A stretch of 64,000 nt of DNA, from assembly GCF_000003815.2 (NCBI RefSeq), contig NC_049994.1, positions 6,141,788 to 6,205,787 of the forward strand, given 5' to 3'. The position numbers were made by a program, and so were the translations under genes. This document shows positions 14,887 through 64,000 of this stretch, in pieces; positions within the stretch are counted from its first letter, which is position 1; every line of letters starts with the position of its first letter. The notes under the pieces were generated by a model. The model did not search any database and was not told the DNA's origin. It saw only the letters and a program-made list of their open reading frames with translations. This DNA comes from Branchiostoma floridae (Eukaryota > Chordata > Leptocardii > Amphioxiformes > Branchiostomatidae).

Positions 14887-17800
14887 TTGGTGATAAATCC
14901 GTGGATGAAACCGAGGCTCGTGTGTGGCTACGACAGTACAACGAAGGACTGCGCAACCGCACTATATCGACAACTGAAGCCAGCTGGGCCCATAGTACCA
15001 ACATGAACCCCACAACTGCAGCGGCTGCGATACAAGCTCAGAATCAACTTAAGGAATGGGCGTTAAAGAAACGAAAGGAAGCTAAGAGGTTTGTAACATT
15101 GCTAATGTCGCTGTGATATGTTTGAAACACAAATTTTCAACGGTGGTAGGCTCTATATTATTGAGTGAGTAGTAATGCACATTTCATGTGTGTCATTGTA
15201 TTCTTGGTTGTCCATGAATGTATTTTGCATATTATTGTAAACGTAAGTAGCCAACTGTTCATCTATGTTTCACCAGTAGGTAAGGTATGTCAACGTTGAT
15301 GTTGATTAATCTATTTTGATTGATAACACATCGCCAAACACAGCTAGTTCCCGCTACACACATTTCTATGTTATCTAAATATCTAGCACTATAAAGGTAA
15401 ATTACTAGCAGTTTGACCATCTCATTTGAAACAGATTCACTCCAGCTATATATTCAGAAGACCTGAGGAGACAATTCTGGTTGATTTCGCTAGATGGCAC
15501 TCCAGAGGATGCTAACGAACTCAGGTAAAATTATGCTCGGATTGCGATGATAAATGGTACGGGGTTAGATCTTGGGAAGACGAAAGTCGCGATCAAGTCT
15601 GGGCCTCCTAGCGGCTGCACTTGATACTGCAGCAGAACTTCCACTTTTTTATCTTTTGTACTGCACATGCTATGGTCTTGTTCTCACTGGTAGAGAAATG
15701 TAATCATTGCAATGTATCTTATATAACGTATCACGTGATACAAGTAGTACATATCGAATATTTATATTCTAGGTGCCCGTGTTTCGTACCAGATTTTTCA
15801 TTTACTGATACTTCATATATTCGGTTTTGATTGTATATTGATACTTGATGGATCTCTTTTTTAGACAATTGTCCAAGCTCCAAAATGAAATCGAAAGTCT
15901 GTACAGCACGGGCAAGGCATGCCGGGATGAAAACGGAAACGAGGCTTGTCATCCGCTCGAACCTGACCTTGAACACATCTTCGCGACATCACGTGACTAT
16001 AACGAACTGCAGTGGGCGTGGCTAGGCTTTCGCGACGCGGTTGGTCCGGCTATGAGAGAGAAATTCGCGCGACTGGTAGAACTGAAAAACAGCGGAGCAC
16101 GAGAACATGGTGAGAAAATGAAGTTAATGTTGCTATAAATATACCATCTTATACTACTGTTCGCGGTAGCTCCATGCACTGTAGTCTCTTACTGCCATGG
16201 AAAATAATGGCGGTGAAGCGGCCACCGCAAAAACCGCGAACATTAAACCACCGTGAAAATTACTGTATTTACAATACCATCTTATACCATCTTAAACCTC
16301 CACAAGTTACGTTGACCAGCAAGCATTGGTCTTAGAAATTTAGTGCATGGATCTATTTTTAACTGCGTTGTTCTAGATATATTGGCATAAAATAAAATAG
16401 GCCAGAAAGAGGCATTGTGCGATATTAGTTTCCATTTGTCGATCAACTCCTATTATCTTCATTTATAAGCTCTTTCATCGATCAGATCGCATGAGCAGCG
16501 ACGGGAATTCTAGGTAATATGTCAAAGTTTAAAGGCCCCGTAAAAGAAAACAGTCCTTGTCTCACACATTGTTCCGATTTGCATAAACAGTGTCACGACG
16601 GGTTTTGTTTTGTTTTTGTGGGCCTTTACCTTTGACATTGTATTACCTAGAATTCCTGTCGCCGCACATGCGTTCTGATCTCTGTGAAAGGACTTATTAG
16701 TGTAATTTACCAGTGTAACAAAAACGGACTATTTCATATACATATCTTATAACTTAGTCGCATTCTCTCCATTTTCACAGGATTTGGTAACTTTTGGGAA
16801 CGCCTTGAAGCGCCGTTTGAGATAGAAAACTTGCTGGACGTTGCTAACGACCTGTGGACTCAGATCAGACCCCTGTACATCCAGCTACATGCTTACGTAA
16901 GGAGAAAACTAGCCACTTTCTATGGCGAAGACAAGGTCTCAACAACAGGGCCAATACCTGCACACCTACTAGGTAGGTATTGTTAGCTTAGGGCACATTT
17001 CCAAACTGGGGCCCGGTCGGGATGTTTGCGGAAACGAAAAACAAATTTAAGTGTTCACCAAGGAATATACACAAATTATTCTCGTGACTAATTTTTTAAA
17101 AGTTTCTACCCAGTCCAATATATGTAACATAATAATTAATTCTATGCAAAAGAGAAATCTAGCAGCAACAATGCGAAACGCATTACGCAAGACAGTTAAC
17201 GTAATGTATTGAGTAATGCCATTACCTGACGAAATCGTTGTCCAATAAACTTTGACTTTGACTTTTCTCTCTCTTGCAGGAAACATTTGGGCTAAGTGGT
17301 GGGGCAACATTTACGATTTGGTGGCACCCTACCCAGACCAACCGGATATGAACGTCACTTCCGTCCTGTTGCAAAAGGGATATGACCCACTGCGCATGTT
17401 CAAGACTGCAGAGGAGTTCTTCACCTCCCTTGGTTTGCGGGAACTACCAGAGGTTAGTATATGTGTCTAGTGTGTTTGTACTGGTCAAAAAATATCTTTT
17501 CATCAAAACGCAAGTAGACATCAAAGAAATGAGATATAGACGCCGTGCCTTCTTTTAAACCTGGCAGCATATTCAATTTTTTTATATAGGGTTGGGAAAA
17601 CGAAAGTAAAGTTTGATGAATTAATGTGTCATTTAACCCTATCTAGACGGGGGGGGGGGGGGTTAAAAGTGCCCGCGCCCACTTTGACGTTGTGTAACTG
17701 CCGAACGTCGTAAGCTAGGACTACGAAACTTGGCGACTTTTCCTAAAATATTGTTAGCAACAGTTCTGCGAAAAAAATTTTAGTTTATGATTTTTCATGT

Positions 17801-43586: not shown

Positions 43587-46500
43587 TCACTTCCACCATA
43601 GCAGATCACACCCTGCAGCAGTACTATCTCCTGTTTCCATTTTTGGTCCTTTTGTCCGCCCTGGACTTTGCAGATTTGAGCACAGACTTGAACTTGGCAG
43701 GTTCTGTGAGGTGTATTCTCGGTCCGACATTCCTTTTGGAATTCCCTGACTTGATGGAGTCAAGATTGGAGTGAATTCCTTCTGGTCCATAAGTCTTTTC
43801 TTCCTTCTGTTATGCCCAGAGAGAATGGACACTAGTCCCCAGGGGGTGACTCCACCCTTTTGAACCAACCTCAGGTTGGAGGAAGTCAGGCTGTTCTGCC
43901 ATCCAGGCAGCCTCCCTGGACAACTGGACGAACTTTTCCAGCTGGTGCATGCTGACGTTTTTACTTAGGTTGAGTTGCTGCTCGAATGGATTCTACAAGA
44001 AAAGGAAAACTCATGAATTTTACTTCAAGTTTTAAAACTACATGTACATAGAATTTGTTATCATGTCAAGATTAGGCCACACCAATTTAATTCGTTGGTT
44101 CTCGGAATCGCCGCTTCAAATTTTCCCAATTTAGAAAAAAAAAAAATTCCGTTCAGTAAAAAAATCGTGCTGCAAAACTTTTGTTCCCTTAGAGAAACAG
44201 AACGTCTGGAAAGTACCAGTGCATTTACTTTTTCTCACCCCTAAGTCCTTTGTTACAAATTGATTCATATCTTTTTTGTTGCAAAGTATATTTAGGAACA
44301 AATAAATCATCGTAAAATGCCTATTTCATGGGCATAACATAACGTAACAGAACCAGAACAGAAGTTCGGCTGAGCATGTGCTCTCTCTCACACACACTTT
44401 CACGTGCAAATTTTCAATTGAAACACAGAAATCAGCACCCAAGCAAACAACTCAATAAATCACCAATACTTTTTCACTTTTGTACCTCCATAGCCAACAT
44501 GTTTTGATAAGCCTGAAATGCCAAAAGCCTTCCAAATGGAGATGAAAATGAAGTCGGAAAATGCCGGGCGGCCATCTTTCTTCTTCAAAGCCTGCAAGTC
44601 AAAAAAGCGCCCCCACGCTGTTTGCAGTGGAACTGCAGGCAGATTTGGCTAGATACTAGTAGTACCATTTCAGTGCTGATTTCAGTGATTGCATGTAACA
44701 TTAGGTTTTTTCTAGGAAGTTTAATCAAACTGCATCTTAATTATTTGTCAACAAATAAATGTACATGTAACAAAAAGAGAGAATAAACCTATGGTTTTAT
44801 ACAACATGTAGTTCAGTACTTTGGCTTGTTCATGTATTTTGGGGGAGTGGAAGTATTTGTAATTTTGTTTCCAATTTGCACCAGTTGACCATGAAATATA
44901 TTTAGAGCCTTGGATAGACAGATTCTTATCAACTCAGAGAGCAAATAAGTCTTCCAGCAATGGTATTTTATTTCTAGAGGCAAACTTAAATAATGTTTGT
45001 TGTTGTCTTTGCATCTCTGTAAAAATACTATATTGGTCTATTTGAGATGTTTTGTGAACATTTCTGTCAACTGTAGCAACTGTACATAATTTAATGTATA
45101 TTGTACAAATTCATGCCAACATGCAATTTTGCATGTAATTTTAACTGATTATTAATAATAACTATTTCTAGCACACGTATACCATGGGTTCAGGTCTGGA
45201 CTAACCAGCCTGGACCTGAACCCAGACTTGTTGCAATTTTTTTTTTTTTTCGCCCTGTCGCTTCAATTTTTTTAGGAAAAAATCCGAGAACCAACTAATT
45301 AAATTGGTATGGACTTAGGCAATGTTGACTTTACAATATCAGGATGACATTATCTGGAAACCCCAAAACTGGACCATGGTGCAAGCCTAGGAATAAGAAA
45401 AGGTTTGGAAAAAAAAGTTACCTTCATTATGATATGAGATCTAAGTTGTCAGGAAAGATGAACAAATGATTAAAAATACAGAGTTTGGTAAACCAAACAA
45501 AAGATTCTTTATTCTTGTTCTTTCTCACCTTCTTCTTTGACATCGGGACTGACTTTGGTATTCCATAAATTTGTAGCCATTTTCTAAACATTTATTTTCA
45601 ATTCATGGCATACATTGGCTCATTTTGCAGATGCTTTGTACAGTTTACATAAAGTTCAAATCTCCTTTTTTAAACAGTTGAAAATTAATGTGAGTAAGGA
45701 TGTCATCCATACAATCAAACCAATATAAAGTAGTAGGCATCCTTCCATCTTTGCAGATGATGGTAGTGCTATATGGCTTTACAAAATTTGATGGAAATCG
45801 ACAAATGTTACAATATAATAAAATGACATCATAAATTACACAAAAAGTTCTGACCTGTATATACAGGGCATCAAAGTTCTTTTTCTCCTGCATCTCTCCT
45901 GTACGTAGGTTCAGCCCACAGTTCTTGAAGTTGAAATTGCTGTAGAATTCGAAGAACTCCAGAAGAAGCTCATCTACAGAATATCCAGAACAATGTTAAT
46001 ATTGTGGTTAAGGGTGAAAATTCAACTGACGAACAGCCAATCTTTACATCTTTGTATGTTCCTCTGTGTGTGTGTCTGTCTGCACGTGTGTTTGTGTATG
46101 TCTGTGCTTGTGTGTGTATCATGCATGTGGGTGTGAAAGTATAGATGCGATTACGTTGATGAAGGTTAGACATCCAGGTAATAGGATATGCCGAAAAGTA
46201 GTTACTCAAGCAACTGGATATGGTTTTGGAAACAGACGTTTCAGTTAGCATCCACTTTCTTTGTAGTGGATCATAACTACATGTTTCTGAAATGTCTGAC
46301 TGTTTCCCAAATCATATCCTGGACCAGTTGCTTGTCAGTAACTGCTTCTTGGCCTGATATAGAATGATGCAATTCTTTCTAGACAAACGTTTAACAAATT
46401 TCCTTCTAACTTTCATCCTGCTTTGTGCTCATCTTTTTTGTGCATCTTTTTTTCATCTTTTGTGGTCATAGTCTAATATTTTTTTCCACGTATTTTCCTC

Positions 46501-49500
46501 CCACTTCTATACTTTTATACCACAATCGAGTTCCTAAGGCCTGTCAAAACAATTCTATACTAAACAGTTCAATGGAAGGAAAATGATAAACATTCATCCT
46601 GGAATTGCAAATATTTTATTTTTAGGAATTGTTTATCAATTGCAATAGTTTACGAATTGCAGCTTCAACTAATGTCTAAGTATATTGGTTTTCATTGTTT
46701 CCACATACCTGTACTGTCTGTGTTTTCTGACGGCTGCACCTTGGTCAGATCACTCACAAGTGTGCAGTCATTTCCCTCCAGAACACAGGTGTCGGCCTTA
46801 TCTGTGGAACATGCAACATGGATAAGTTTAAATACATTATTCCATTTCTTAGATATGTCTGACCCTTACCTCCCTCATGTCAAAGACAAGTCCCTCCTGC
46901 ACCTGATGGCGCTTAGAGCAGTGCCCAGTCCAGGATAGAACCCTAGCCTTGGTGGGAGCGCCAAATACATGTACTAACCACTTGACCATTCAGTGTAAGA
47001 AAGGTGTAGAAACAGAAAGAAACAATATCCTGACTCCAGGGATTTAAACTCGCGCCGATCACGGGCCACCAGACCACAAAGCCAGAATGCAACCGATTAC
47101 GCCAAAAGCCTCAAAGCCATTAGGCATGGTCGGTTCATGGTGCTTGAACCTAACTTTTACAACATCTTAATCCTGTTCATCATTATACATAGTAGTGCTA
47201 AGACGGACCAATCATTGGAAGTTCTGGAATGGAAATTGGTCAGATTTGGTTAAATACATGTAGATGTAGTTTGTTATATATATATATGTATTGATTGTAC
47301 ATTGTATGGCTCTCAGGGAAGAAGCCCAATCAGCCTGTGAAATCATATAACACATGCTATGATTAACACAGAAACATAGATAAACAAAGATAATTGCTGT
47401 ACACAAGCGCCACCTACCAGCCAGCCCCTTCAGTGCATCAATGGCAGGGAGCACAGGCTTGTCTGTGTACTGTAGGAAGAATATCACCAGCGCTGTCAGG
47501 GAGAAGTTGGTTATCCAGCCTCCAGGCATACTACTGGTGATATGGTGCATACGTGCCCAGTGTCGGACTGCGTATACGAGCGGCCGTACCCGAGGGTCGA
47601 TACGGGAGTACAGGTTGAGTAGCTCGCTGCTCTTCAGTGCAATGCTAGAGAGAAAGTATGGAGATTTGTCATTGGACAGATGGTGATTATTTGTACTTTT
47701 CATTCAGAGACAAACCAAAAAGGGTTTTAGGAAAAACATTAAATGTAACAATACCAAAAGGCTCTGCTACAATGTTATTCTATTTGAGTCTTAATCCTAC
47801 TAGTATGTATATTATATCGTTTTGTTAATCCAATTTCAATCCTAATCTTAGGTTACATCATCATCTTGTTAATCCTGTTTAAAGCATCAGCACATGCATG
47901 TGCTATTCAATTTTCTTTCATTTTTTTTTTCATATGCAGTGTACATTTGTACACTAGGGGTGGGTACCGGTACAGAAAATTCAGGTCCAGGTACGGTCCA
48001 GGTCTAGATGATCAGGTCCAGGTCTGGACCTGAACCTGGACCTTATTGTTTGTGAATGGGCAATACTCAACACAATGGTCCATTTCGATACAAGGGAATG
48101 TTTGGTGGAGTATCCTATCGTCATGTAAACAACACTAACTGTCTTAGGGTCTGTTCAGTTACACCAAGTTTGACTGTAGAAACTTTGTAAAAATGACTAT
48201 AAACTCTCCTCTACTATGCTTATTATTTTCTTGGACAAATAAACGTCAAAAAACGTAAATGCCTGCCGCTATAATCTGTTAGTTTTCTAATCGGTCCAAC
48301 ATCCAGTCTTACTACTACTGATTTTTTCAGGTCCACAACCGATCCCAAGTTTCCCCCGGCCACAAGAAAAAAACGGTTTTGAGCTGGTACCACCCCTAAT
48401 GTACACGTACCTGTTGTTAGATGTCAGGTCACATTGTATGCCCGATGCCTCGTGCATAAACTTGACCAATGGACAGCGAGCGTGCAGGATGTACTGCAGT
48501 TGGCGACAGCTGGGTACGAACTCCGCCAGACTCTGTCCCACCGTGGACAGGAGGTTCTGGGTCGCTGCTCTCTCCGTAGGCACAGTCCTCACTTCGTACT
48601 CCATTCGCGGGAAAGACTTCTTCTGTAGGATTCAATCAACGTTATGCTGGTGTGTTATGCCAAAGGGCGGTTACACCGGTCATACAGATCAGGGCTCTAG
48701 CCAGCGTCCGTCGGAAATTTGCTGCGTGTGACGGAAAAATTTTAAAACCAATCCGTCAACTTTGACGGACAAAAATCTGACAAAAGCTCCTTGGTGGAAG
48801 CTACAGGCTGCTTGGGGACGCCGTCCACGGCCGTAAAAGCCACACACTGTTTTGCTATTGTTATGATTGTTGATAATGTGTGTCGGTGCCCTTTCGCATA
48901 CGATAATCTCATTAAAACCCGTTTTTCAAGGTCTCAGTTCAGTCTCTCTAACTCCTAGAATAGTGTTTTCGCGACAGTGGGAATTGGCTGACGGAAAAAA
49001 ATGTTGAGCTGGCTAGAGCCCTGATACAGATACAGAAAACTTTTCAGAATGTATCAGATACAAGGAATAGCATACATCACGGCTGCCAGACAGTACTAGT
49101 GCCTGTCATTGTACCTGGTGTAACAGACCTGTACCTACTATGTAAACCTCTGTCTCCAGCTTTAATTTTTTCCATCCCACTCATTGTTTGGGAGCCCATG
49201 TTGTCCACTTTCTTGGTTGAATCTGTCATTCTAAGCTAATGAAAACACATTTCTATCAAATTTATATACTGACATTCAGATTTTTCGGAGAGATCGGGTG
49301 AAATTTTTGTCCTTCCCAACGAGTAACTTTTAGTCCCAGACAGGTCCTGGAGACTGCTCTGTACCCAAACTTGTCATTGTACCAGTCCTGATGTTACGTT
49401 TGAGTACTCAGCCCTAGCCTAGTAAACAATACATTCAAGCGATCGCTGTTGTTGTTTATATCCGGGGTATTTCACGGCTGGTGCCTACCAGGACGTCAGC

Positions 49501-52370
49501 AGATTGGATTGAAAATTTATATTGAAATTAGCAGATCAAATTACAGGTTAGTATGTAAATCAATATTTTGGCAAACACCTGCTTTTTGCCTACCACTGCA
49601 TCACTGTGACATCATCACGATTGCTCGTATGTATCTTCATGTATGTGGAGAAAATACAGAGATTGAAATACATATGCCATTTCAGTATAAACCCACCTTC
49701 TTGGTTCTGTGTTGCTCCACGTTCAGGTTCAAGTACATGTCAAGGTCACAGCCCTTGTTGCCAAAGCCGTTGACAGAGGAGCCAAAGGGGTGCACAATGC
49801 ATCCTGGGAAGTAGCCTGTGATGGCGTCCTCCACCAAAGAGCAGACCAGGAATCTCAGCCGTGTTTCGCCCTCCGTTAGCTGTGTCTCTCGGACTAAAAC
49901 TTGCATCTGTTCCTCCATCTGTCAAAATAGAAAAGAGATAAGATATATCAAGCTTATATATGTACTATAGCACTATATGTTCTGTGAAGCCTGAGTCTGC
50001 ATGTATAAAAGTATGAGTCAATGAAAGCACCTTATGCAAGATTTCTTAATTGATATACATTGTACAAATGTGTATCTATTGAGATTTCCCACATTTGTGG
50101 AAGGACCCAGTGACCAGGTTGAGCGGTGTGTCGGACTCCCACTGGCGTTTTAAAACCCCATCTTCATGTAGACAACATTAGCTGCCTGACCAAGATTGAC
50201 TGTTAAAACTTGGTAGAAATGACTCAACTACTTCAACCTTGCTATTTTCTTGTACCGGCATGCCCAAAAATGTGTGAATGCCTGACAATATAATTTGCTC
50301 ATTTTCTAATTGGTCTAAGATCAACTGAATTTTTTCCAGTCCGGTCTAACATAAAAGACTGATTTTGTACCGATTTTGTAACAATTTTGCACCAGTTACC
50401 CACCCCTACACGTGAAGGAATGAAAAATTGCTATACTAACAGACTGAGCTGCACACAGCTTGGTTGCCAGGATGGAGAACTTCTGATCTGCAGTCATCTC
50501 CCCCATGCCGGGTCTCCTACTGGCGTTGTCCATCCAGTTACTGGTGCGGAAGCACAGCAGGCGTGACCTGTAGGGGAGGATCTCCAGAATGGACCTGAAG
50601 TGGGAGGTGTTCAGTAGGCTGTGGACTGAACCTCTAGACTTGTACTCCAGTAAGGTGTACAGCTCCTGGAAATGTATGACAGAAGTACATAAGGCAATGG
50701 CGCAATTGTAAAGAAAGGTACATTTTTGTAGTCTCATAGCCTAATTGAGATTGTAGGGGCAGCAGGCTTTTAGCCAGGTACTAGTAGGTGTACAGGTGTA
50801 CATTGTACACCCTGTTAAAAAAATAACACAAATTGTACACCCTTACACTGGGGAGCAGATCCTCTGACAAGCATGAAATTCTGATTGACCAGGGATGCTA
50901 CAGGTCACATGTGGCCTGTCTGACAGTAAATTTGCTTCATTCCCCCAAATTTGCACCTCAAAATGTGGGAAATGAGAGTTATAAATTTCAGAATTTTCTG
51001 AGTGAGGATGTCCCCAGACCCCCTACAATACTCGCGCCTGCAGCGCTCACCTAATGGCAAGAAATTTGGACACCCTATGAAAAAATCCTAGCTAAAAGCC
51101 TGAGGGGCAGTCAGGCTTTTAGCCAGGCATGCGTCAAGTCAAGGTATTATTTCGACACGCTTTGAAATTCTTAAAATAACTAGAAAAATTGGATGTACCA
51201 GATGCCCTTACACTGGGGAGCAGATCCTCTGATAAGCATGAAATTCTGATTGACCAGGGATGCCACTAGGTCATCTGTGGTCACAGTCTTCTACTGTGAC
51301 CTCTCTGACAGTAATTTTGCCCCTCAGGATACCTTAGAATGCACCATTTTAACTTCAAATCATGGTCTCTTTGCTTTCTATAAATGAAATATGGTTTGTG
51401 GCGTTTTAGAAACTTGGATGTGATAAGATGCCTATGGGAAAATTATGGTCAAACTTTATTATCTATCGGCCCAGGCCCCAGGGTTACTTTTAAGTTATGG
51501 TTAAAAATTGACATCAGCTATCATACCTGGTTTCCATAGGTGAAACAGTTTTGCACCTCCCCGAAGTGAGAGCAGAACTTGGTGAGCTCATCTTCTGTAG
51601 CTTTCCCCACGTGTCTGACGAGCACGCTCCGTAACGCCTCCTGTCTTCGCTCCTCCTGGATATCCGAAAATCTGCGCAGATCCACGCCTGGTCTGGGGAC
51701 ATCTGTAGTTTCAAACGATACAGTAAATTCATTTATCTTTGCAAATTGCAGGCATTTAATTTCAAAGCTGGATTGGAAAGGATGTTTTGTATTCAGGATG
51801 TTTTAAGTTTACAGTTGAAACAATACAATAAGTAATAACACGGGGCTACAGATTATGCTGTCACAACATCATAATAAAAGATCAATAATTTTTCGGCAAG
51901 CATTTTGCACACGTAACGTTACAAAATATATCTAACGTTAACGTTAACGTTACTATCATATTTTGCATAGAATTATGGTAAAGAATACTATTCATTTGAA
52001 CACTGTCACCGTAATTAAGGTCCAACAATGATATATAGTAATCGATTGACGTGTAAGAATGTTGCTGTCATCAAATGAGCAATGAAATCAAAACGATCGA
52101 AACCACACTTATACAAAATAGTACTGAATTCATGATCATAATTTGGTTGTGCAACTGGTTAGCCACAGGCCCCCCTCCCCATTTCTACAAACCATTGTCT
52201 ATGTTTGAAGAAATCTCCGGCTCGGACGACACTACAGTCTCTGAATTTGACACCTGGGTTGTACATCGTCTTATAAACTTGTAGAATACCGACGATCTTC
52301 TCGACAGTCCACAATTTCTCTCTAAACACCAACGCAACGCCGCCCCCTTCCTCATCATGGGCGCCGCCAT
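43587..52370 (-). CDS. MTPAP: Mitochondrial poly(A) polymerase
   Basis: Non-canonical poly(A) polymerase that adds tails to mitochondrial RNAs in the matrix. Minus-strand exons: 52370-52193, 51702-51527, 50665-50441, 49918-49697, 48622-48411, 47644-47418, 46801-46709, 45973-45855 and a last exon from 43992. The start [14 protein letters not shown] is Arg-rich without acidic residues, as expected for a mitochondrial presequence. Exons 2-3 encode the RRM-like domain ([20 protein letters not shown]). Exon 4 carries the nucleotidyltransferase motif [11 protein letters not shown]...CDLDMYL and exon 5 the third catalytic Asp ([10 protein letters not shown]). Exons 6-9 form the PAP-associated domain ([14 protein letters not shown]). 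In the last exon the conserved WGLVSIL lies in another frame, so a one-base frameshift near 43865-43880 is likely; the shifted frame stops at 43587, the unshifted one at about 43810. The gene is divergent from TUT1. Confidence 0.9.
44079..45316. mobile_element. Non-autonomous DNA transposon with about 30-bp inverted ends
   Basis: The left end ACCAATTTAATTCGTTGGTT continues in CTCGGA; the right end, reverse-complemented, matches it with two mismatches. TTAGGC occurs next to both ends. The interior has no ORF but is related to the interior of the transposon at 53550-54757 (shared AAAACACAGAAAT and TCACCAATACTTTTTCAC-like segments). It sits in MTPAP intron 8. Confidence 0.7.
46060..46125. repeat. 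TG-rich microsatellite
   Basis: Imperfect TG repeats with TC and TA variants in MTPAP intron 7. Confidence 0.85.
46985..47160 (-). mobile_element. tRNA-like SINE, family C, inverted copy
   Basis: Minus-strand reading gives GGCGTAATCGGTTGCATTCT, GGTGGCCCGTGATC and GAGTTTAAATCCCTGG, a diverged version of the units at 34866-35222. It lies in MTPAP intron 6. Confidence 0.55.
47953..48400. mobile_element. GGTACCGG-type MITE, near full length
   Basis: Begins ACTAGGGGTGGGTACCGGTA and ends GGTACCACCCCTAA, giving inverted ends. The interior has AGGTCCAGGTC-type words and a GGCAATACTCAACACAATGG segment. The family has at least seven pieces in this window. Lies in MTPAP intron 5. Confidence 0.75.
48690..49023. 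mobile_element. hAT-type MITE with 8-bp target duplication
   Basis: Perfect 16-bp inverted ends CAGGGCTCTAGCCAGC (48690-48705 and, inverted, 49008-49023) are flanked by ATACAGAT on both sides (48682-48689 and 49024-49031). An 8-bp duplication and CAGGG ends are typical of the hAT superfamily. The interior has no ORF. Lies in MTPAP intron 4. Confidence 0.88.
50098..50408. repeat. GGTACCGG-type MITE, diverged copy
   Basis: Shares GGCGTTTTAAAAC, the CTTGGTAGAAATGACT segment and the closing GTTACCCACCCCTA with other copies. Lies in MTPAP intron 3. Confidence 0.55.
50840..51330. repeat. Two diverged direct copies of an interspersed repeat
   Basis: TACACTGGGGAGCAGATCCT occurs near 50845 and again near 51209, each followed by AGCATGAAATTCTGATTGAC and a CAGGGATGC segment. 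A third relative is near 62840-62925 in TUT1. They lie in MTPAP intron 2. Confidence 0.7.
51915..51955. repeat. TAACGT short tandem repeat
   Basis: TAACGTTAACGTTAACGTTA lies in MTPAP intron 1, close to the shared promoter. The same hexamer occurs at the splice donor near 41520-41540. Confidence 0.8.
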
Positions 52371-52373
52371 CTT
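52363..52373 (-). promoter_or_regulatory. YY1-type motif over the MTPAP start codon
   Basis: Minus-strand AAGATGGCGGC is a full YY1 consensus and contains the MTPAP initiator ATG. YY1 sites over the start region are common in promoters of nuclear genes for mitochondrial proteins. It also provides a good initiation context (AAGATGG). Confidence 0.6.
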
Positions 52374-52692
52374 GGTTTCTATATCGCACTCGTTCCTAGA
52401 ACTTTACATACAAAAATCACGATAAAGATCATTCTTATGATTATATGAAGTGTATTGGCACAAAATATTTTAATTAGGTCTAATAAACAAATGTCTGCGA
52501 AATAAACGATCAGCTAGGGTCGAAATTTATATATTTCTTGTGAGCCATGGGCACGAGAATGGGGTCAAATGAGGTCATCTATCAGTTGAACTCTAACCTC
52601 CATGCATGTGCGTTGGAATGACGTTTTCACAAAGTTTTTGTTTTCAGTTGAAACGTTTCTATCTGTACTAGTTTGTCGTGTCCCACAGTAAA
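52371..52692. promoter_or_regulatory. Presumed bidirectional promoter, MTPAP and TUT1
   Basis: Only 322 bases separate the two divergent start codons. No TATA box at a sensible distance was noted, which fits a housekeeping promoter. Transcription starts cannot be placed from the sequence alone. Confidence 0.6.
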
Positions 52693-55600
52693 ATGGCATC
52701 AGGAGCGGGACCCTCACACAAGTCACGACATGTTTGTGAGCTCTGTGATGTCAGAGTAGAGTCTGGTGAGTTTGGACACCTCCTTGGTTTGGACATGTTT
52801 TGTTTTCCTGTATTTGGGGAGGGGGGCAATCATTTTTGAGTGACACTTAGCTGTAAGCCTTGAGTTTTAACTCAAAATTTTATATGGTAAATGCATTCAC
52901 AGACATAAAGAGCAGCAGCAATACAACAATTACTCCTAGATCCTACATCTGATAAAATCTGATAGAATGTTTAACGTTGTCAAAATAGGACACATTATTA
53001 TTATTAATCTCAAAAATCTGAAGTTTCTAAAAGTTTTTTGAAATTCAATAATGTTAAGTGCACCAAAGGTGTTTAATTGTCTTGTCCAATCTTGCTGAAT
53101 GTTTTGACTTTGGTGAATGAGGTCAATTGCCCTACTGTTAGTATGTCCCGACACCCTGTGCTACGACATCCCTTGATACTCATACTGTTCAATATGTAAT
53201 GTTGATATGAAAAAGGTACATGTAGGTATGGAAGTCTACCATCTACAGAGGTTGGGGATCTGGAGGTTCAGGAGCAGGGCTAGAGGATCCAAAGCAGGGA
53301 AAAGGCACCAACGTAAGATCCCCACCATTATCGGAAATAGATACGAGTCGCCTATATTTGCTCCGAACCGCAGTGATGTATACACATGCAAATCTCACCT
53401 GCTTGATTTGAAGCGCAGTGATGTATACACATGCAAATCTCACCTGCACCCTATTAACACTGATCCTGTCCGAAAATCTCGTCAGAATGGCATGCCAAGC
53501 ATCCTGTTGACAAACGCCCGTTCTTTGGTCAACAAACTGGACGAATTTACTCTCACCTCTCAAATAAACGTACCGGTACGTTTATTTTTTTCCGCCTCAA
53601 AATCCACTCGGTACGTCCTTATTTTAGACGGTACGTTTATTTTTTTTTCAAATTGGGGCTTTCTTTACTAACCAGGGACCCCAAAAATATTGAAACTTTG
53701 GTATTTTCTGCCCATATTTCCGCTGTATTTTTGCTTAAAATTCACTATTTTTCGGACGAGGCAGCGCGGATTTCCCTGCCGCTAGCGGTATGACCCAAAC
53801 ATCCTATTTAAACTAGGGATGCGTACCGGTACGCCGGATCGGTGCTGGATGTGCAAAAACTTTTCGGTTCATGTCCAAAAATAAGTGATTCGGTACTGCA
53901 CTCACTTATATCCTTTTTGTTTTAGACCATTTTAACCTTCCAAAAATCTTGAAATTCGCGCTGAACAAAGACGAAAACATTGCCAAACATCAAGGCCGAG
54001 CTCAAACACATGCTACACACACAGTCACTCAGATCCGTAAATTCTCGATCAAAACACAGAAATTAACCACCAACCAAACAAACTAAAAAGTTACCAATAC
54101 TTTTCCACTATTTTTCACCCGTAGTCAACTTGTTTTAATGTTCCAGCAACAAAAAAATCCTTCCAAAATAAAGCACATCGTTCAATCGGCTCGAAAACAT
54201 CCGCCATGTTGGATTTATCAACTCACGCCGAATCTCGCGGTAATGCGCGAGAGAATGAATATTTTCTGCAGTACCGTTATCTTTTAATAGGGGGCAGTGT
54301 CTATGACCTCCTTGGTTTCTGCAACATTGAAAATAGCACAAGTGGTGAATAAAATATGGTATTCTACTAAGTTGGAATGTTTCTTCAAAATGTTATTTTG
54401 TAACAATGATTATAAAATAAAGTTCTGTTTTTATTTCTTCAATTTTTATTTTCATTCATTTTTTACTTTTATTATAATCTTTGTTGATGTTGTGACACTC
54501 AGATAAAGAAAATATGTGCAATAACATAGGAATTATTCTGTTCATTATTTATACAATTAACTGATATGGTACTCAGGCATAAATGAATAAAAAGAGCCTA
54601 CCTGCTTATGACTGAAGTAGCATGGGCACAGTTTACATGTCAATTTTATATTTTTCCGGGGGGTACTTTTATTCCAGGGGGTACTTTTATTAAATTTTGA
54701 AGATTTGTCCGGGGGGTACTTTTATTCCAGGGGGTACTTCTATTTGAGAGGTGAGAGTAGCCTTGTTCTGGCGTCCAATCAGATTGACGTCTCAGTTGTA
54801 ACGGAGACTTGGTTCTCTGCTAACCTACCTGCAGAAGCTTCGAGCATTGAGGGCTATAACCTTTACCGGAAAGACCGTTCTGACAGGAGAGGAGGAGGAG
54901 TCGCTATGTACGTAAAAAACGACATCGCAAGCACACCCCTGGATGTAGTGGTACCTGAGGAATTGGAGTGCGTATGGGTTCACCTCAGACCACCAAGGCT
55001 CCCAAGGGAGGTTACATCCCTCGCCCTTTGTGCTGTCTACAACCCTCCAGCCTCAATTCACGAAAACACTTTACTCGATCACCTTTCGGAATCTGTTGAC
55101 GTGCTCCGCAACTCTCATCCTGATGTAGGTTTAGTCATCCTGGGCGATCTCAATCGCCTTGACATCTCTGAGCTGTGCTGTTACAGTTCTTTACAGCAAA
55201 TCGTCAAAGCTCCAACTCGTGGCGTAGCAGTTCTGGATCAGATACTGACCAATCTGAGTAGTTTCTACAACTCTCCACTCATCGCTCCCCCGGTTGGTCT
55301 CAGTGATCACAACTGTGTCATTCTGTCCAGTAAACAAAGAACGACACCCAATGCAATCCACAAAAAAGTAGTGCGTCCGATGCGCGACTCTGATTCCAGG
55401 GCATTTGGGTCCTGGATCACCACTCATTCGTGGGACGAAGTTCTGCAAGCCACCTCAGCTGAGAGCAAGTGCAACGCTTTCTACCACACACTGAAGTGCG
55501 CAGTGGATAAGTACTTCCCGACCAAAGTGGTATCCCTCCACTGCAGAGACAAACCCTGGGTCACTCCAGCCATCAAAGCCCTAATTGCTAAACGCCAAAA

Positions 55601-58600
55601 TGCATTTTCCAAGGGTCATGTTAGTGTCTGGAAACGGCTTCGGAATCGAGTTGCTAGAGAGATAACCTCGGCTAAACAACACCATTACCGGGACAAAGTT
55701 AAGCACCTCAAGACTGCCGACCCGAAAGAATGGTATCGAAACATCAAAGACATGACCGGTATACGTCCCGACAGTGGCAACGCAATCCAGGGCATCAGCG
55801 CCACCTGTCCTAAGGATGCCGCTGATGCCATCAACCAGCACCTGGCGGCGGCCTCCCAACTGTTCCCACCTTTGTCCTTAGATGAACTTCCGTCCTTCCT
55901 GCCTGCTTGTAACCCTCCTCCCAAGGTTACAGTGTGGGACATGTATCACCAACTTCGCAAAGTGAAGCTAGGCAAAGCTGCAGGTGTAGATGATGTCTCT
56001 CCCCGCCTGGTGAGAGAGTTCGCCTTCGAGCTGAGCTTGCCTTTGTGCGACATTTTTAACACCTCGCTGGCTGCAGGATCCGTGCCATCTATGTGGAAAA
56101 AAGCCAACGTTGTCCCCATTCCCAAGGAGAACCCACCGCGCCTTGAAAAGTTGCGACCAATCTCTTTAACCTCAATCTTCGCTAAGATTTGTGAAGATTT
56201 CGTCGCCAAGTGGTGCCTACAGGACATTCTTCCCTACATAGACAACCGTCAGTTTGGTTCACTTAAGGGTAGGTCCACGACACACTGCCTGACAAGTCTT
56301 GTTCATAGTCTGGCCAGCACTACCGACAAACCCGGTCATACCAGCACCTTGGTACTCACGGACTTTACGCGTGCGTTTGACCGTGTTCATCACCTGACTG
56401 CGATGAAGAAACTCCTTGAACTTGGTGTTCGTCGTTCTATCCTCCCTTGGATCTGCGATTTTCTTTCACACAGACAGCAGCGAGTCACCTACAAAGGGAC
56501 TTTTTCTGACTGGGAAACCCTTACCTGTGGAGTACCCCAAGGTACGAAGCTTGGTCCCCTGATCTTTCTTGTCCTCATTAACGATGCAGTCCCCCAGGAA
56601 GTTACCTCAGCAGAGGCCTGGAAATATGTCGACGACATGTCGCTCGCTGAGGCCAGTCTTGCAACACAACCTTCCAAAGTTCAAACCGATCTGGACAATC
56701 TTGTCAGCTGGACTGACAAGAACTACATGCAGCTTAACCCAACTAAATGCATGGTGATGTACATTTGCTTCCTGCGAAGACCGCCTGAAACTCCCAAACT
56801 GTTTGTTGGCACATCTGAACTCGAAGTTGTGCACATGGCCAAGGTCCTGGGTGTAATACTACAAGCAAACTTGAAGTGGACTGCACATGTAGTAATGATT
56901 GTGGGCAAAGCTAACCGCCGCCTTTACATGGTTAGGTGTTTGAAGAAACACGGTCTGAGCACTAGCGACTTAGTACTTGTGTACATAGGGTTTGTCCGCC
57001 CCACCCTGGAATACGCCTGCCAGGTTTGGCACCCTGGTCTTACAGTAGAACAATCACGTATGATAGAGCGTATCCAGGTTAGAGCCTGTAAGATTATCCT
57101 TGGTCGCTCCTACAGTTCCTACAGTTCGGCACTGCAGGTGTGTGATCTGGAACATTTGCATGTAAGACGTAAGGCTCACTGCCTGAGGTTTGCTAGATCA
57201 CTTGTTAATTCTGAGGTATTCAACTGGCTACCACCACGCCGCTCTGAGGCACATGGTAGAGACCTCAGAAACGCTGACAACTTCACTCAGTTTAAGTGTA
57301 GAACGGCTCGCTTTAGGAACACTACGCTCCCATACTGTGTCGACCTTTTAAATTCATGTTAGACTTCAGATGTCACTTTTTAATATTCCTTAATAGTGAT
57401 GTTTTAGATTGAAATGAGACTTTATTACTGACATATATATATCTACTATGTGTGTGTAGATCCACACTTTTACATTGTACAGCTGAGTGCGAATTGCGAT
57501 TAGAATAAGTTGATTACTGCACATATGCAGGGATTTCCATTATACTCTCTTGTGTACTTAGTACGAGGCAATTTAGTCTCCGGACTACCAGCTTGTACTT
57601 GATTTTGTGTGCGTTCAATAAATAAACCAGTTCTCTCTCAAGTCCCATGGTCTTTTAGAGTTGTTATCCACTGTGTCTATAATTATGACAGACTAAGATT
57701 GGGAATGGCACGGGAAGGTAAAGCCTTCTTCTCGTGGCCTTTTACTTCCCCTTCTGACCATGTCGCAGTTACTGGCATTGGAACCCACCTGGATGCATTG
57801 AGGAAAGTAAACATGGTGCCTTCCCCAAGGGCATAATACCTAATCCTATCCCTAATGGCTAGCAAAGTGGTGTCAGAACATTAAAATGGGGAAACAGTGG
57901 AGCAATACCATAATTTGTAGAAGGCATCAGGACATACATATGAGCAAATGGCTGCCCCTGCTGAATGACTGTTGATGTTACCTCCTGTAGGGTCCACACT
58001 CCAGGCTCACTTCTCAGGGAAGCGGCACCAGCGACTGCTGGGCCTGAAGGAGGGACGTCAGAACCAGGCAGACAGGAGCGTGTTTATCACCGGCTTTGGA
58101 AAGGGAACCTCTGAACTGGAACTCACAGACTACTTCAGCAAATATGGCGATGTTTCCAATGTCTTCATGGACAAAGACAAAGTAGGTGTTATTAAAGAGG
58201 GAGAGATTTGGTAATGCTATGTACAAAAAGATAATTTAAGCAAATCTCCACATTAGAACAGGACTGTCTCTATGTCCTGAGATGTAAAATTTGCTTTGTG
58301 GACAAAAATTTTATCCATCAAAATAATCAGAACTTTAATATGACATGAAATTGATGAACATGTATTTTCACGTAGGTCAATGTATTTATACTTTATTCCA
58401 AATGCGAGACCAGATCACTCATACATGACAGTACTGTCATTGATGATATTTTGTTGTTCTATATGCATTTAGCCAAGTAGTACTATTGTCTATATTAGGG
58501 GCGGGTACCGGTACAGAAAATTCAGGTCCAGGTCCGGTTCAGGTCCAAAGGATTAGGTCCAGGTCCGGACCTGAACCTGGACCTGATGCAGTATGACTCA

Positions 58601-61600
58601 TACCAATGGTCCATTTTACTACAAAAAAATCTGTTTGGTGGAGTATTAGACTTACACTGGCGTTTTAAAACCATACAACGCTAACTGCACCTGTACGATT
58701 GGCTGTAAAACTTGGTAGAAATTACTATAAATTCTACTCTACTTCACTCTTGTTATTTTCTTCCACCTGCAAGCGCTAAAACGTGTGAATGCCTGATAAA
58801 ATAATCTGTTAATTTTTTAATCGGTCCAACGTCCGGTCCACCTAATTTTTTCAGGTTTTTCTGGACCGGTCCAATAAGAAAAACCGGTTTTGTACCGGTA
58901 CGCAGTACTGATACCCAGCCCTAGTCTATATAGCTAGTGTAGTAGTTGTTATTGGTTGCTATACATTGTACCTTGTGTGATTGTTGGGCAATAACGTTCA
59001 TTCATAAGTGACAGATTTAAACAATGAAAATTAACAACTTTGTCTCCCAAATATTGAGTGGGACAGAAAAAATCCAAAGCTGGAAACAGTCCTTCATTTG
59101 GAGGGTTGATAAGATCAAAATGGTCGCCATCTTTGGACAACTCATATTTCTTCTTGCAGGGTACCTACGCTATTGTAGAGTTCATCACCAAGGACATCGC
59201 CCAGACTGTACTGCAGGCATCACCCCACACTCTGCATGATGAACTGACTGACTGACTCCTGCATTTAAAGGGTTGATAAGATCAAAATTATAACCATATT
59301 TTTTGACAACTTCTATCTCTTCTACTTGCAGGGTACCTTCGCTATTGTAGAGTTCAGCACCAAGGACATCGCCCAGACTGTACTGCAGGCATCGCCCCAC
59401 ACTCTGCATGATGAACTGACTGTCTGACTCCTCCATTTAAAGGGTAGATAAGATCAAAATCATAACAGTCTTTGGCCAACTTCTATTTCCTCTACTTGCA
59501 GGGTACCTATGCTATTGTAGAGTTCAGCACCAAGGACATCACCCAGGCTGTACTGCAGGCATCACCCCACACTCTCCATGGTGCAGAGCTGACTGTCAAA
59601 CACAGAGAAGTGAAGGCCTTCTCTCCTAAGAGCAAACACAAGAGGCAGATGGGGACAGGAGAGGGTCAGGCTGCAGACCAAGAGGAACTGTTAAGAGCAA
59701 TGTGTGGTCAGCAGTCGGTAAGGCATATGCATCTAAGTTTGCGGGGATTTAATTTCGCGTTGGCGGGAAAAGCAACTTTTCGCGGTAGCACCATGCACTG
59801 TAGTCTCTTACTGCAATGGAAAAATGTTATAAGTTCGCGGTGAAGCAGCCACTGTAAAAACAGCAAATATTAAACCACCGCGAAAGTTTCTGCATTTATA
59901 GTATACAGTCCTGAAATCCAGAAATTACATGATTGTGTAAAATTTTGACAGCTTAGCCTAGACGCTCAGTGGGCATTTCCTATGCCTTTCCCAATTGCAC
60001 AACATTGGGGCATAGTAAGTATCGAACCCAAAACCTATTGGTTCTGAGCCCAGCACTTTATTTTTACGATACCAACACCACTTTTCTAAGCTTTAGCAGT
60101 ATCTTTGGCTGTTCCCATCTGGTATGCTATTGGCAACATGGACTAGCTGGATTTCAGACTACACCAATAAATACAAAAGCTTTTAGATAGGACTAGACCA
60201 ATCTAATTCTTTATATACAATTTTACATTTCTTGCACGTGTCCACACAGGTTGAGGATCAGATGAGCATGCTGGTGCAATACCACCAGATCCCACCAGAG
60301 GGAGTTCGTGTCAGGTACCTCGTATGCAGTCTGATACAGGAGGTGTTGAAGGAGTTTTTCCCCGCCTGCAGAATTTTCCCCTTTGGTTCATCCGTGAACG
60401 GGTTTGGCAGGCCAGGATGTGATCTGGACTTGTACCTGGACTTTGGACGCTCAAAATTTGACTACCAGTTCGCAACATCCTCAAGCAGTATTTCAGAAAA
60501 GGTGAGAAATCTGTTTGGTATATTTCTCCATTATTGTGTGCTTTTACAAAGTTTTAGATTTATCAAATTCTGTCGTTTGTAATAAGAACTGGAATAGTGA
60601 TAATTTGAGAAACCATTATGTATGTAGATAAAACAAAATAATTGTTAATTCTAAACATTTGAAATTTTCTATGTCAAAAAAGCAAGGATGTCCCTGTAGC
60701 TCAAGTGGTAGTAGCCTCACAGGTGAGGTTCCAAATACAGTACATGTCGTTGGTAACCCGTACATATATCATGTACATGTACATGTAGTTGGTAACTGGC
60801 AGACCCCAGTTCAATCATGAGATGGACATTTTCGGATGGGGCTACACACTTTTAGAAGCGACGTAAAATGGGGCTCTCATGTTCAAGTAGATGCCTCAAC
60901 CATGCTAAAGCAACCCTTTCCTATACAATAGCCCTTTACACAGAAACGGTAAATAAACTTGCTGCCCTATGTGCCAGTAGACACTACAAGGGTCTAAATG
61001 AATAAACAATGTCAATGAAGCAATAGAGCCTATTCTGCATCATAGTACATGTACATACATTGTTTATATAGAAACAAGAAGCCTTTCCAGGGTTGCAGAG
61101 ATTTTAATAAAGTTATATGCTTATACCACTTGCAGAATTCGACAGATCCTAACAGAGAAGAAGCTACAGAAGAGACTGTAGACTCTGCAGACATGAACTC
61201 CACAGAGAAAACTGAGTTGGACAGTGAAACTGTGGTCTCCATGGAGGACATCGAGTCAGCCTCAGTTGAGGAGCTTCTGGACCTGCTGGCCAGCATCTTA
61301 AAGAGATGCGCACCTGGTTGTGCCAAGGTGCAGGTGGTTCCTTCTGCCAGGTGTCCTGTGGTTAAGTTTGTTCACAAAGACACGGGACTCCATTGTGACA
61401 TCTCTATCAACAACAGGTATGATTCTTTGTAGAAATGTTTGTAAAACATGTAAAACAATTCTTTGATTGCCACTGTATGGGTTTCAAGGCTTGCAAATTT
61501 TGCAGTTTTATTGAGAAAGGAAGACAGTCCTATCCAAATCAGGTAAACAACACTAACTGCCTCTGTGTTAGACCAAGTTTGACTGTACTTTGCTCTTGTT

Positions 61601-64000
61601 CTTTTCTTGAATCTGGAAGCCCCAAGCACTCGAACGTCTGTCAGTATACAGTTCATTTTCGAATCGGTTCAGCATCTGGTCCACTAATTTTTTTTCAGTT
61701 CCATTTTTTCTGTACTGATCCAACAAGAATAAACAGTTTTGTACCGGTATACCACTAATCAATGGACTACATGTATGCATGTAGTAGTAGTAGTAGTCCA
61801 CTGTATTCTGCTGATGCAGTGGTCTGGACACTGTGCATCAGCAACCAGTCTTTTATGTTACCTATTAGTAAGTAAATGTAGATTTTTTAATAAATGCCAT
61901 GATATTTACCCAGATCTTTCTCCCCTCCCCAGACTTGCTCTCCATAACACAGAGCTGCTGCACCAGTACAGAACAGCCAACCCAGGGCTGGGGCCACTGG
62001 TGTTTGTGGTCAGGGAGTGGGCCAGACTGTGTGGTATAGCTGGTAACAGTGCGGGAGGGGGGCCACGACTCACCAACTATGCCCTGACATGGCTGGTAGT
62101 GTACTACCTACAGATGGAGGGAGTTCTACCATCAGTACAGGAACTCAGGGATGTGTGTGGTGAGTTTTGTCTTATTACCGCTGGTGTTTGTAGTGAGGGA
62201 GTGGGCCAGACTGTGTGGGGTAGCTGGTAAAAGTGTGGGAGGGGGGCCACAACTCATCAACTATGCCCTGACATGGCTGGTAGTGTACTACCTACAGACG
62301 GAGGGAGTTCTACCATCAGTACAGGAACTCAGGGATGTGTGTGGTGAGTTTTGTCTTATTACCGCTGGTGTTTGTAGTGAGGGAGTGGGCCAGACTGTGT
62401 GGGGTAGCTGGTAACAGTGCGGGAGGGGGGCCACAACTCATCAACTATGCCCTGACATGGGTGGTAGTGTACTACCTACAGACAGAGGGTGTTCTGCCAT
62501 CAGTGCAAGTACTGAGACAGGGATGTGTGTGGTGAGTTTTGTTTCATGATGGTCAGGAATTTGATCTAAATACAGGTGTTTTGATGATGTTTTGCATTTT
62601 AGTATAAGCCAAAGTTCATGAAGAAATCTAGGCTGCTAGTAAAGTTTTGGCCACTGACTATAGGCCACAGTGACTTAATGTAACAGTTATGGATGGCAAC
62701 TTCCGGAGACTCCAAAACCAATGAAAAAAAAAAGAAGAAAAATCCAGCAAAAAAATGCTATTAAACCATAGGACTAAACAAATTCAGTCCATTTTTTCCC
62801 AGGTTTGGTTTGTCTTCTAAACCATGTGCCCCTTGAACCTCAGAGCACTGACCCTCTGGCAAGCATAGAATTTTGATTGACCAGGGATACTATTGGGTCA
62901 CATGTGGTCACAGTTTTTTTAGAACAAGGAAAAATCAATGAACGCTTGGATGTCATCCATAACATTTAGTCAGTGTGGCCTAACATGTATGTAAAAATGA
63001 TTATTATTATCATCATTGCATATTGTTATGATGAAAGGGAAAAAATATAATTAAGAAATATACGGAATGTATGAGTTCCAGTATAAATATACTTGATGCT
63101 TTATTATCAAGAAAAAAAGGGAAAAATTCAAGAACTCTTTAATTTACATTTCCTGTTTTTACAGAGCCCACTGAGGTGTTGTTGGTAGATGGTTGGGACT
63201 GTTCCTTTACAAGACAGATGGAGAAATTCCCAAACAAGGGGAAAACTCCCTCACAAGGTATCTACAAATTAATTAAAGATCCTTCCATTGAGCTGGTTGC
63301 TACACAATAGGATTATGATATTTCTCTGCAAGATTCTGTATGTATGATCTATAATCTATTTAAAAGATGTTACCATTAGTATTTTTTTATCTTTGCTCTT
63401 GTTTTCACTTAACTTATTTTAACATTATTCAAAATGTTACTCTTTATATAGGTATATGTCCTTCTGCCAACCTCTAAATCTTTCAGTTGAACACAGAGTG
63501 CCTCAGAGTCTATAATATTGAGATTCTGAACTATAATTGTTGAACATCTATTTTATGTTTTCCCTACAGTTCAACTGCTGAAGGGATTCTTCCACTTTTT
63601 CAGTAAATTTGAGTTTGAAACTTCAGTGGTATCTCCTCTCACTGGCCAGCACCTGTCAGTTACCAAAGTTTCAGCCAATCAGATCATCTCCACAGCTGAT
63701 GTGCAAGGAGAATCACAGCAATCAACCAATCAGGTGTCAGCTTCCCAGCATGCATTAGAGGGCAAGACAGCCAATGAGGGCTCAGACAGCTGTCAACAGT
63801 TCAAGATTGGACCAATCAACATACAGGATCCATTTGAGTTAAGCCATAATGTAGCTGGAAATGTCAACGAAAAAACTGCACAAAGAATTTCAGAGGAATT
63901 CAGCAAGGCAGCCGAGATTTGTGCGAAGCAGAATTTTGGCACAAAGATGCCATATTTACCAGAGTCAGTGGCTTGGGGGGTCGCTAAGTTGCTGAAAAAT
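52693..64000 (+). CDS. TUT1: Terminal uridylyltransferase 1 / Star-PAP, 3' end outside window
   Basis: Nuclear nucleotidyltransferase; in vertebrates it uridylates U6 snRNA and adenylates selected mRNAs. Exons: 52693-52765, 57991-58181, 59502-59717, 60250-60501, 61136-61416, 61933-62159, 63165-63257 and 63570 to the window end. Exon 1 has the two Cys of a C2H2 finger (CELC) and exon 2 the two His (QAHFSGKRH). The RRM follows (RSVFITGFGKGTSELELTDY), completed in exon 3 (GTYAIVEF). Exon 4 holds GSSVNGFG...CDLDLYLD, the catalytic pair of Asp, and exon 5 the third Asp (GLHCDISINN). Exon 5 also has an acidic insert before the LLASILKR helix. Exons 6-8 encode the PAP-associated domain (NYALTWLVVYYL, VDGWDCSF, INIQDPFELSHNVAGNV). 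All phases close. It is divergent from its paralogue MTPAP. Exons 3 and 6 have tandem partial duplicates. Confidence 0.92.
53374..53452 (+). repeat. 33-bp direct repeat inside the LINE ORF
   Basis: GCAGTGATGTATACACATGC and the 13 bases after it occur twice, 45 bases apart. They encode a repeated RSDVYTCKSHL in the part of the LINE ORF before the endonuclease. Confidence 0.9.
53550..54757. mobile_element. TA-flanked non-autonomous DNA transposon inside the LINE
   Basis: Perfect 17-bp inverted ends CTCTCACCTCTCAAATA (53550-53566 and inverted at 54741-54757) are flanked by TA on both sides (53548-53549 and 54758-54759), as in Tc1/mariner-like elements. Removing the element and one TA puts the two halves of the LINE ORF in the same frame. 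Repeated subterminal words are GGTACGTTTATTT on the left and GGGGTACTTTTATT (four times) on the right. No ORF inside. Confidence 0.85.
54760..57362 (+). pseudogene. LINE ORF2: endonuclease and reverse transcriptase, interrupted
   Basis: The long open part of a CR1-type ORF2. Endonuclease motifs: VVTETWF, GGGVAMYVKN, VILGDLN and GLSDHNCVIL. RT motifs: KAAGVDDVSPRLV, KLRPISLTSIFAKICEDFV, LTDFTRAFDRVHH, CGVPQGTKLGPLIFLVLIND and KYVDDMSLAE, the catalytic box with Val in place of Ala. The C terminus has the RMIERIQVRACKIILG region. The N-terminal end of the endonuclease (TNARSLVNKLDEF) lies at about 53510-53549 on the far side of the inserted transposon. The ORF is open apart from that insertion, so it was probably intact when hit. 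Confidence 0.85.
58495..58926. mobile_element. GGTACCGG-type MITE, near full length
   Basis: Starts TTAGGGGCGGGTACCGGTAC and ends in TACCGGTACGCAGTACTGAT, then ACCCAGCCCTAG, giving inverted ends. The interior matches the copy at 47953-48400. It lies in TUT1 intron 2. A shorter piece lies at about 61515-61765. Confidence 0.75.
59160..59421 (+). pseudogene. Two truncated duplicates of the start of TUT1 exon 3
   Basis: Copies starting at 59160 and 59332 repeat the CTTGCAG acceptor and the first 80 or so bases of exon 3 (GTYAIVEF or GTFAIVEF to SPHTLHDELT). They then run into a TGA where the true exon (59502) continues. The period is about 171 bp. Neither copy has a splice donor. Use of either acceptor would put a stop in the RRM. 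Confidence 0.85.
59735..59905. repeat. Short interspersed repeat, CGCGGTAGC family
   Basis: Second copy of the element at 16155-16275. The ends GGGATTTAATTTCGCG and AAACCACCGCGAAAGTTTC are partly complementary. Lies in TUT1 intron 3. Confidence 0.6.
60690..60925 (+). mobile_element. tRNA-headed SINE, family B
   Basis: Starts with GTAGCTCAAGTGGTAGTAGC (A box) and has CCCAGTTCAATCATGAG (B-box region). The body is GCGACGTAAAATGGGG and AGATGCCTCAACCATG. Lies in TUT1 intron 4, sense direction. Confidence 0.72.
62160..62534 (+). repeat. Tandem duplication of the 3' half of TUT1 exon 6
   Basis: Two further copies of a unit of about 184 bp follow exon 6, each ending in the same GTGTGTG|GTGAGT donor. 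In the copies GTGTTTGTGGTC has become GTGTTTGTAGTG, creating an AG acceptor-like site after a T-rich stretch. The first copy would form a 150-base exon (62194-62343) with the same phase at both ends and no stop. The second would be 154 bases (62378-62531) because of a four-base net insertion near its end. Confidence 0.85.

Follow-up and report, generated by a model that had tools for sequence, protein, structure and literature searches.

The closest described counterparts of the genes considered here are TUT1 and MTPAP, whose relationship has been approached through protein phylogeny. Modepalli & Moran 2017 (PMC5509036) describe MTPAP as probably derived from TUT1 (TUTase1 from TUTase6) in Urbilateria, and as absent from cnidarians, sponges and non-animals. 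The amphioxus locus described below agrees with that account in the two genes involved, the direction of descent and the proposed age, but differs from the protein phylogeny of PMC5509036 by adding intron positions and linkage. Within the main text of that paper, the terms intron, synteny, linked and chromosome have zero occurrences, and in the literature passages searched no intron or linkage statements on TUT1/MTPAP were found. The duplication is already known; what is added here is the linkage and the intron evidence, which includes one intron inside the RL/RRM domain.

A second comparison is offered by the bidirectional promoters of amphioxus, studied in B. lanceolatum by CAGE and microsynteny (Marletaz et al. 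2018, PMC6292497). That study places 25% of neighbouring amphioxus genes in bidirectional promoters. Of 372 putatively ancestral bidirectional promoters, it finds the majority missing from vertebrates, with 54.5% gone already in stem vertebrates, against few amphioxus-specific losses (5.3%).

The window analysed here is a stretch of 64,000 nucleotides from Branchiostoma floridae (C16:6141788-6205787), and the genome searched alongside it amounts to 513 Mb in 431 contigs. MTPAP, on the minus strand, and TUT1, on the plus strand, form a head-to-head pair in this window. The original prediction put 322 bases between start codons on opposite strands, and this is borne out, with the start codon of MTPAP at 52370 (-) and that of TUT1 at 52693 (+). 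Both gene models were built from homology and splice sites, without transcript support. All internal splice junctions in both models are AG/GT, MTPAP intron 8 included, and the region from 43001 to 64000 has an N count of 0. The phase series 0-1, 1-0, 0-0, 0-0, 0-2, 2-1, 1-1 is common to MTPAP and TUT1, and exons 6 and 7 measure 227 bp and 93 bp in each, just as had been predicted. Cumulative coding length is also equal in the two genes at introns 5, 6 and 7 (1013, 1240 and 1333), an agreement that is partly coincidence because the upstream exons differ in length.

Several other features occupy the remainder of the window. A repeat unit of ~214 bases with a conserved frame (CRDGRCLKKVLAVAPKQSPYAQEYLEKELSQHFAVF...) is present in many copies, interrupted by N runs, at 344-7593 and 13901-14318 (-). 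A retroelement at 8003-11810 (-) has two long frames, one of 998 aa with a reverse transcriptase (PF00078, zf-RVT) and one of 290 aa that appears endonuclease-like by eye. Exons of an angiotensin-converting-enzyme-like peptidase (PF01401) are found at 14802-15113 and 17249-17467 (+), and UDP-glucuronosyltransferase exons (PF00201) at 26623-26973 and 33628-33927 (-). By eye, frames similar to the latter recur at about 25-38 kb, which suggests tandem UDP-glucuronosyltransferase copies.

MTPAP has nine exons, running from 52370 down to 43810 (-). Exon 1 (52193..52370, phase 0-1) contains the start codon and a basic leader, with 9 K/R and 1 D/E in its first 40 aa and a maximum hydrophobic moment of 0.53. 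The RL domain begins in exon 2 (51527..51702, phase 1-0) and is completed in exon 3 (50441..50665, phase 0-0), which also encodes a linker. GSSVNGFG and the DxD catalytic motif are in exon 4 (49697..49918, phase 0-0), and the later part of the palm, with the third Asp, is in exon 5 (48411..48622, phase 0-2). These are followed by the 227 bp exon 6 (47418..47644, phase 2-1), the 93 bp exon 7 (46709..46801, phase 1-1), exon 8 with the PAP-associated domain (45855..45973, phase 1-0) and exon 9 (43810..43992). The intron preceding exon 9 is without a counterpart: this intron 8 (phase 0) is unmatched in TUT1, the exon 8 of which is unbroken at that place. Pfam detects RL (PF17797, 4e-12), the MTPAP-like palm (PF22600, 5.8e-38) and the PAP-associated domain (PF03828, 1.8e-08) in the MTPAP model, in which the RRM_1 and zinc-finger families have no Pfam match. 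By analogy with the vertebrate families, the product would be located in mitochondria and would act in ATP-specific polyadenylation there.

The 3' end of MTPAP had been placed at 43587, and here the original prediction has to be corrected, since that position belongs to a different frame from the one in which exon 9 starts; the in-register frame stops at 43810. A PWGLVS stretch, presumably typical of the vertebrate MTPAP C-terminus, is found within 43587-43992 (-) in the frame that stops at 43587. This change of frame may be due to a small indel, in the assembly or in this allele, or to a splice that was not recognised.

TUT1 has eight exons and encodes a protein of 937 aa, with a stop codon outside the window at C16:6206837. 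Its C2H2 zinc finger begins in exon 1 (52693..52765, phase 0-1) and ends in exon 2 (57991..58181, phase 1-0), which also encodes the first part of the RRM/RL domain. The remainder of that domain and a linker are in exon 3 (59502..59717, phase 0-0), GSSVNGFG and the DxD motif in exon 4 (60250..60501, phase 0-0), and an acidic linker and the later palm with the third Asp in exon 5 (61136..61416, phase 0-2). Exon 6 (61933..62159, phase 2-1) is the 227 bp exon and exon 7 (63165..63257, phase 1-1) the 93 bp exon. Exon 8, which starts in phase 1 at 63570 and continues past the window end at 64000, encodes the PAP-associated domain and a C-terminal extension; all eight exons are on the plus strand. 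Pfam matches comprise a zinc finger (PF12874, 1.2e-05), RRM (PF00076, 8.6e-08), the palm (PF22600, 5.7e-34) and the PAP-associated domain (PF03828, 4.1e-07), and RL is also found. A nuclear function is predicted for TUT1, again from the vertebrate families. The expectation that the domains fall in the same exons of the two genes held for GSSVNGFG (exon 4) and the PAP-associated domain (exon 8); it did not hold for the RRM as such, as RRM_1 scores in TUT1 only and RL in both.

The introns of TUT1 contain additional sequences of note. A reverse-transcriptase frame (PF00078, E 2e-23) is present in the sense strand of intron 1, at 54900-57359 (+). At 59160 and 59332, just upstream of the true exon 3, its 5' part is repeated in two decayed versions, identical to it at 78/97 and 77/97 bases; both keep the acceptor TTGCAG|GG and have an early in-frame stop. 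Within intron 6, at 62178-62531, the 3' part of exon 6 recurs twice in tandem, with 94% identity across 166 bases in one copy and 89% across 170 in the other. Each copy ends in the same donor sequence, with no acceptor evident by eye.

Among proteins of solved structure, the MTPAP model matches vertebrate MTPAP best (5a2v, E 4e-135), then TUT1 (8idf, 4.6e-57), with TUT4/7 appearing later, and the best match of the TUT1 model is human TUT1 (8idf, E 1.3e-94), followed by MTPAP (7e-65) and again later by TUT4/7. Domain order and catalytic motifs are like those of human TUT1 (TENT1) and human/chicken MTPAP (TENT6). The two amphioxus genes are old paralogues: MTPAP has 46% identity with chicken MTPAP (212/464) and 31% with amphioxus TUT1 (155/497). 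FastTree bootstraps were obtained for a quartet of 416 columns and for a 115-column set that includes TENT2, TENT3 and TENT4 from the same genome. The quartet groups amphioxus and human TUT1 in 200/200 bootstraps. In the 115-column tree, MTPAP and TUT1 are grouped in 52/60 bootstraps and the MTPAP clade is recovered in 59/60. The two TUT1 sequences are together in only 18/60 of them, with the rival grouping of amphioxus TUT1 and MTPAP in 33/60, and 115 columns are too few for that tree to tell a sister position of MTPAP from one nested within TUT1.

Searches of the genome for relatives recover a small set of genes. A 222-residue piece of MTPAP, used as query, finds MTPAP itself, TUT1 and a single exon of TUT4/7 (10 candidates scored, 7 matches), and searches with the PAP-associated and palm families match MTPAP, TUT1 and three other TENT genes. 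No further copy of MTPAP or TUT1 was found in the genome with this query and these families. In viral and prokaryote contigs, the search for encoded relatives gave 73 and 69 pattern matches, of which 0 were confirmed.

The comparison of intron positions provides the main evidence on how the two genes are related. The original prediction had called for the introns to be mapped on a protein alignment, and for the amphioxus pair this has now been done, with intron columns read from an alignment of four sequences. Introns 2, 3, 5, 6 and 7 (5/7) have an identical column and phase in MTPAP and TUT1. The other two agree in phase only: intron 4 is at columns 277 and 282, in an unalignable linker, and intron 1 is at columns 59 and 49, in the leader of one protein and the zinc finger of the other. 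MTPAP intron 8 is the one extra, unshared intron. When 7 + 7 introns were placed at random on 440 codons, with assumed phase frequencies, 191,653 of the 200,000 trials gave 0 coincidences; the maximum of 3 occurred once, and 5 was never reached. The match of the phase series by itself has P ~1e-3 under assumed phase frequencies, and at about 1 in 1000 it leaves the proof resting on the alignment and not on the series. The paralogy proposed for MTPAP and TUT1 is upheld, in that the common intron positions strongly support a duplication at the DNA level.

Intron 2 is located within the domain matched by the Pfam RL model in both genes. A review (PMC7988573) describes TENT1 as the only TENT with an RRM; unlike that view, the amphioxus genes have one intron common to the RL of MTPAP and the RRM of TUT1. 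Because the intron within the RL of MTPAP matches one within the RRM of TUT1, we argue that the MTPAP RL domain is a decayed TUT1 RRM. The genome search with the RL family detected a single place, MTPAP exon 2, and says little about RL elsewhere because the intron-split RL of TUT1 was itself missed.

The three other TENT genes of this genome served as controls. Judged from their motifs, we take the gene on C15 to be TUT4/7 (TENT3), the gene on C2 to be GLD2-like (TENT2) and the gene on C6 to be PAPD5/7-like (TENT4). The exons of their catalytic cores were read by eye and then aligned, with partial coverage. None of the 14 intron marks in these cores matches an MTPAP/TUT1 intron in both column and phase, in a comparison in which two of the TENT2 marks may be both ends of one intron, introns 2 and 3 are left out, the place of intron 6 is unread in TENT2 and TENT3 and its segment missing from TENT4, and intron 7 is unreached in TENT2. 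The place of intron 5 is read through by TENT2 and TENT4 exons, and that of intron 7 by TENT3 and TENT4 exons (TENT3 being placed by motif, outside the alignment). As far as they could be read, these two introns seem specific to the MTPAP/TUT1 pair. The TUT4/7 gene (C15, about 588-648 kb) has an intron two columns, or 4 nt, from shared intron 5, which is either a slid homologue or an independent gain. Another TENT3 intron precedes shared intron 6 by about six columns, and there are phase-0 introns near shared intron 4 in both TENT2 and TENT3. Because of the TENT3 intron near intron 5 and the phase-0 introns of TENT2 and TENT3 near intron 4, part of the intron set may predate the duplication.

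The surroundings of the two genes were compared with those of their human counterparts, which we take to be at 10p11 (MTPAP) and 11q12 (TUT1). The landmarks used were EPC, BAMBI and Par3 near human MTPAP and EEF1G, seipin and INTS5 near human TUT1. On the MTPAP side, EPC is on C16 (28.1 bits, a weak match), BAMBI on C10 and Par3 on C10 and C5, so that 1/3 is on C16; on the TUT1 side, EEF1G and seipin are on C1 and INTS5 is on C8, or 0/3. Chromosome-scale synteny was set aside as proof that both human loci derive from C16, as the six landmarks are scattered and neither support nor exclude ancestral linkage.

Blastn between the two sides gives 7 matches. In 3 of them a coding exon of one gene (4, 5 or 6) pairs with its counterpart in the other gene; another links exon 6 with the copy inside intron 6, and the remaining 3 fall in non-coding sequence at a distance from the axis. 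Around the duplication axis, no non-coding symmetry was found besides a 13-nt G-rich exact inverted match between 52169-52181 and 52815-52827, in the first intron of each gene, and this is probably low-complexity chance.

The spacer between the start codons (52371..52692) is AT-rich, with a GC content of 36% and a CpG o/e of 1.07 over its 322 bases, and AAGATGGCGGC, which we take to be a YY1-like motif, overlaps the MTPAP start codon. The spacer is presumed to be a bidirectional promoter. As in the ancestral bidirectional promoters of B. lanceolatum reported by Marletaz et al. 2018 (PMC6292497), there is a divergent pair, a short spacer and a YY1-like motif at one start codon, and the human partners are separated. 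Unlike that set, which was inferred from CAGE and microsynteny, the pair here was recognised from its sequence, and its partners are paralogues of each other.

The locus is best explained by a single inverted duplication, at the DNA level, of a TUT1-like gene that had introns. It would have taken place in the bilaterian ancestor, and the head-to-head layout would have been kept here and split toward human; we give this a probability of about three in four. The introns common to both genes show that the copy was made at the DNA level and not via mRNA, and the simplest route to two adjacent genes in divergent orientation is an inverted duplication at the promoter. A rival reading accepts old paralogues with homologous introns and makes the head-to-head layout secondary, the product of a chance rearrangement in the amphioxus lineage. 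It draws on the fact that the linkage is known from this one genome and that the chromosome landmarks are scattered, but we consider it unlikely, as chance divergent adjacency of a gene to its own sister paralogue would be expected about once in tens of thousands (a figure inferred from gene number), and amphioxus-specific losses of ancestral bidirectional promoters are few (5.3%; PMC6292497).

The remaining alternatives concern the introns themselves. If the shared introns were the ancestral series of all TENT genes, they would be uninformative about a TUT1-MTPAP duplication, and the TENT3 introns 4 nt from intron 5 and about six columns from intron 6, the phase-0 introns of TENT2 and TENT3 near intron 4, and the position of introns 2 and 3 outside the TENT comparison all leave room for this. 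It is nonetheless improbable given that 0/14 marks of TENT2/3/4 coincide in column and phase, and that the place of intron 5 lies within continuous exons in TENT2 and TENT4, as does that of intron 7 in TENT3 and TENT4. Later gene conversion between the neighbouring copies, in place of an old duplication, could also have produced the match, as inverted neighbour copies can convert each other and the two first introns share the 13-nt exact inverted match. The greater identity of MTPAP to chicken MTPAP (46%) than to its own TUT1 (31%) indicates that there has been no overall homogenisation of coding sequence, which makes conversion very improbable. It is harder still to credit phases that agree by accident, or introns gained independently at favoured sites: chance could yield the phase series alone about once in 1000, but not readily the exact column and phase of 5 introns in proteins that are only 31% identical.

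Under the preferred reading, a single inverted duplication in the bilaterian ancestor would have left two intron-bearing copies of a TUT1-like gene. The one on the plus strand would have kept the zinc finger and the C-terminal extension and would still be the nuclear U6 snRNA uridylyltransferase, TUT1. The one on the minus strand would have shed the zinc finger, acquired a basic leader through its first exon and let its RRM decay into RL; with an extra 3' intron gained (or kept), it would have become the mitochondrial poly(A) polymerase, MTPAP. The original head-to-head layout around the presumed 322-base divergent promoter would most likely have been kept here and separated in the lineage to human. 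Ancestral linkage with a shared promoter is a likely reading and the most economical one, because it is very unlikely that two old paralogues would meet again by chance as a divergent pair. A pair that survives in amphioxus and is split in vertebrates also fits the published pattern of bidirectional-promoter loss (PMC6292497).

The most different part of the two genes is exon 1, which encodes a portion of the zinc finger in TUT1 and the basic leader in MTPAP and ends in phase 1 in both. A bolder proposal, which we regard as doubtful, is that the duplication broke inside intron 1, so that the MTPAP copy, lacking TUT1 exon 1, used the antisense side of the promoter and a new phase-1 leader exon. 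Sequence on the antisense side would then have become a phase-1 first exon, spliced onto the old exon 2 and encoding the basic leader. If this were true, one event would account for the head-to-head layout, for the absence of a zinc finger from MTPAP, for the common phase of intron 1 and for the gain of mitochondrial targeting.

The intron positions of this pair are a line of evidence, separate from protein trees, for the origin of animal mitochondrial polyadenylation in a copied nuclear RNA-tailing gene, and for equating the RL domain of MTPAP with the RRM of TUT1. Should the same divergent arrangement turn up in other phyla, a single promoter may have served both the U6 tailing that belongs to splicing and mitochondrial mRNA tailing since early bilaterians, and the uncoupling of TUT1 and MTPAP would then have happened in vertebrates.
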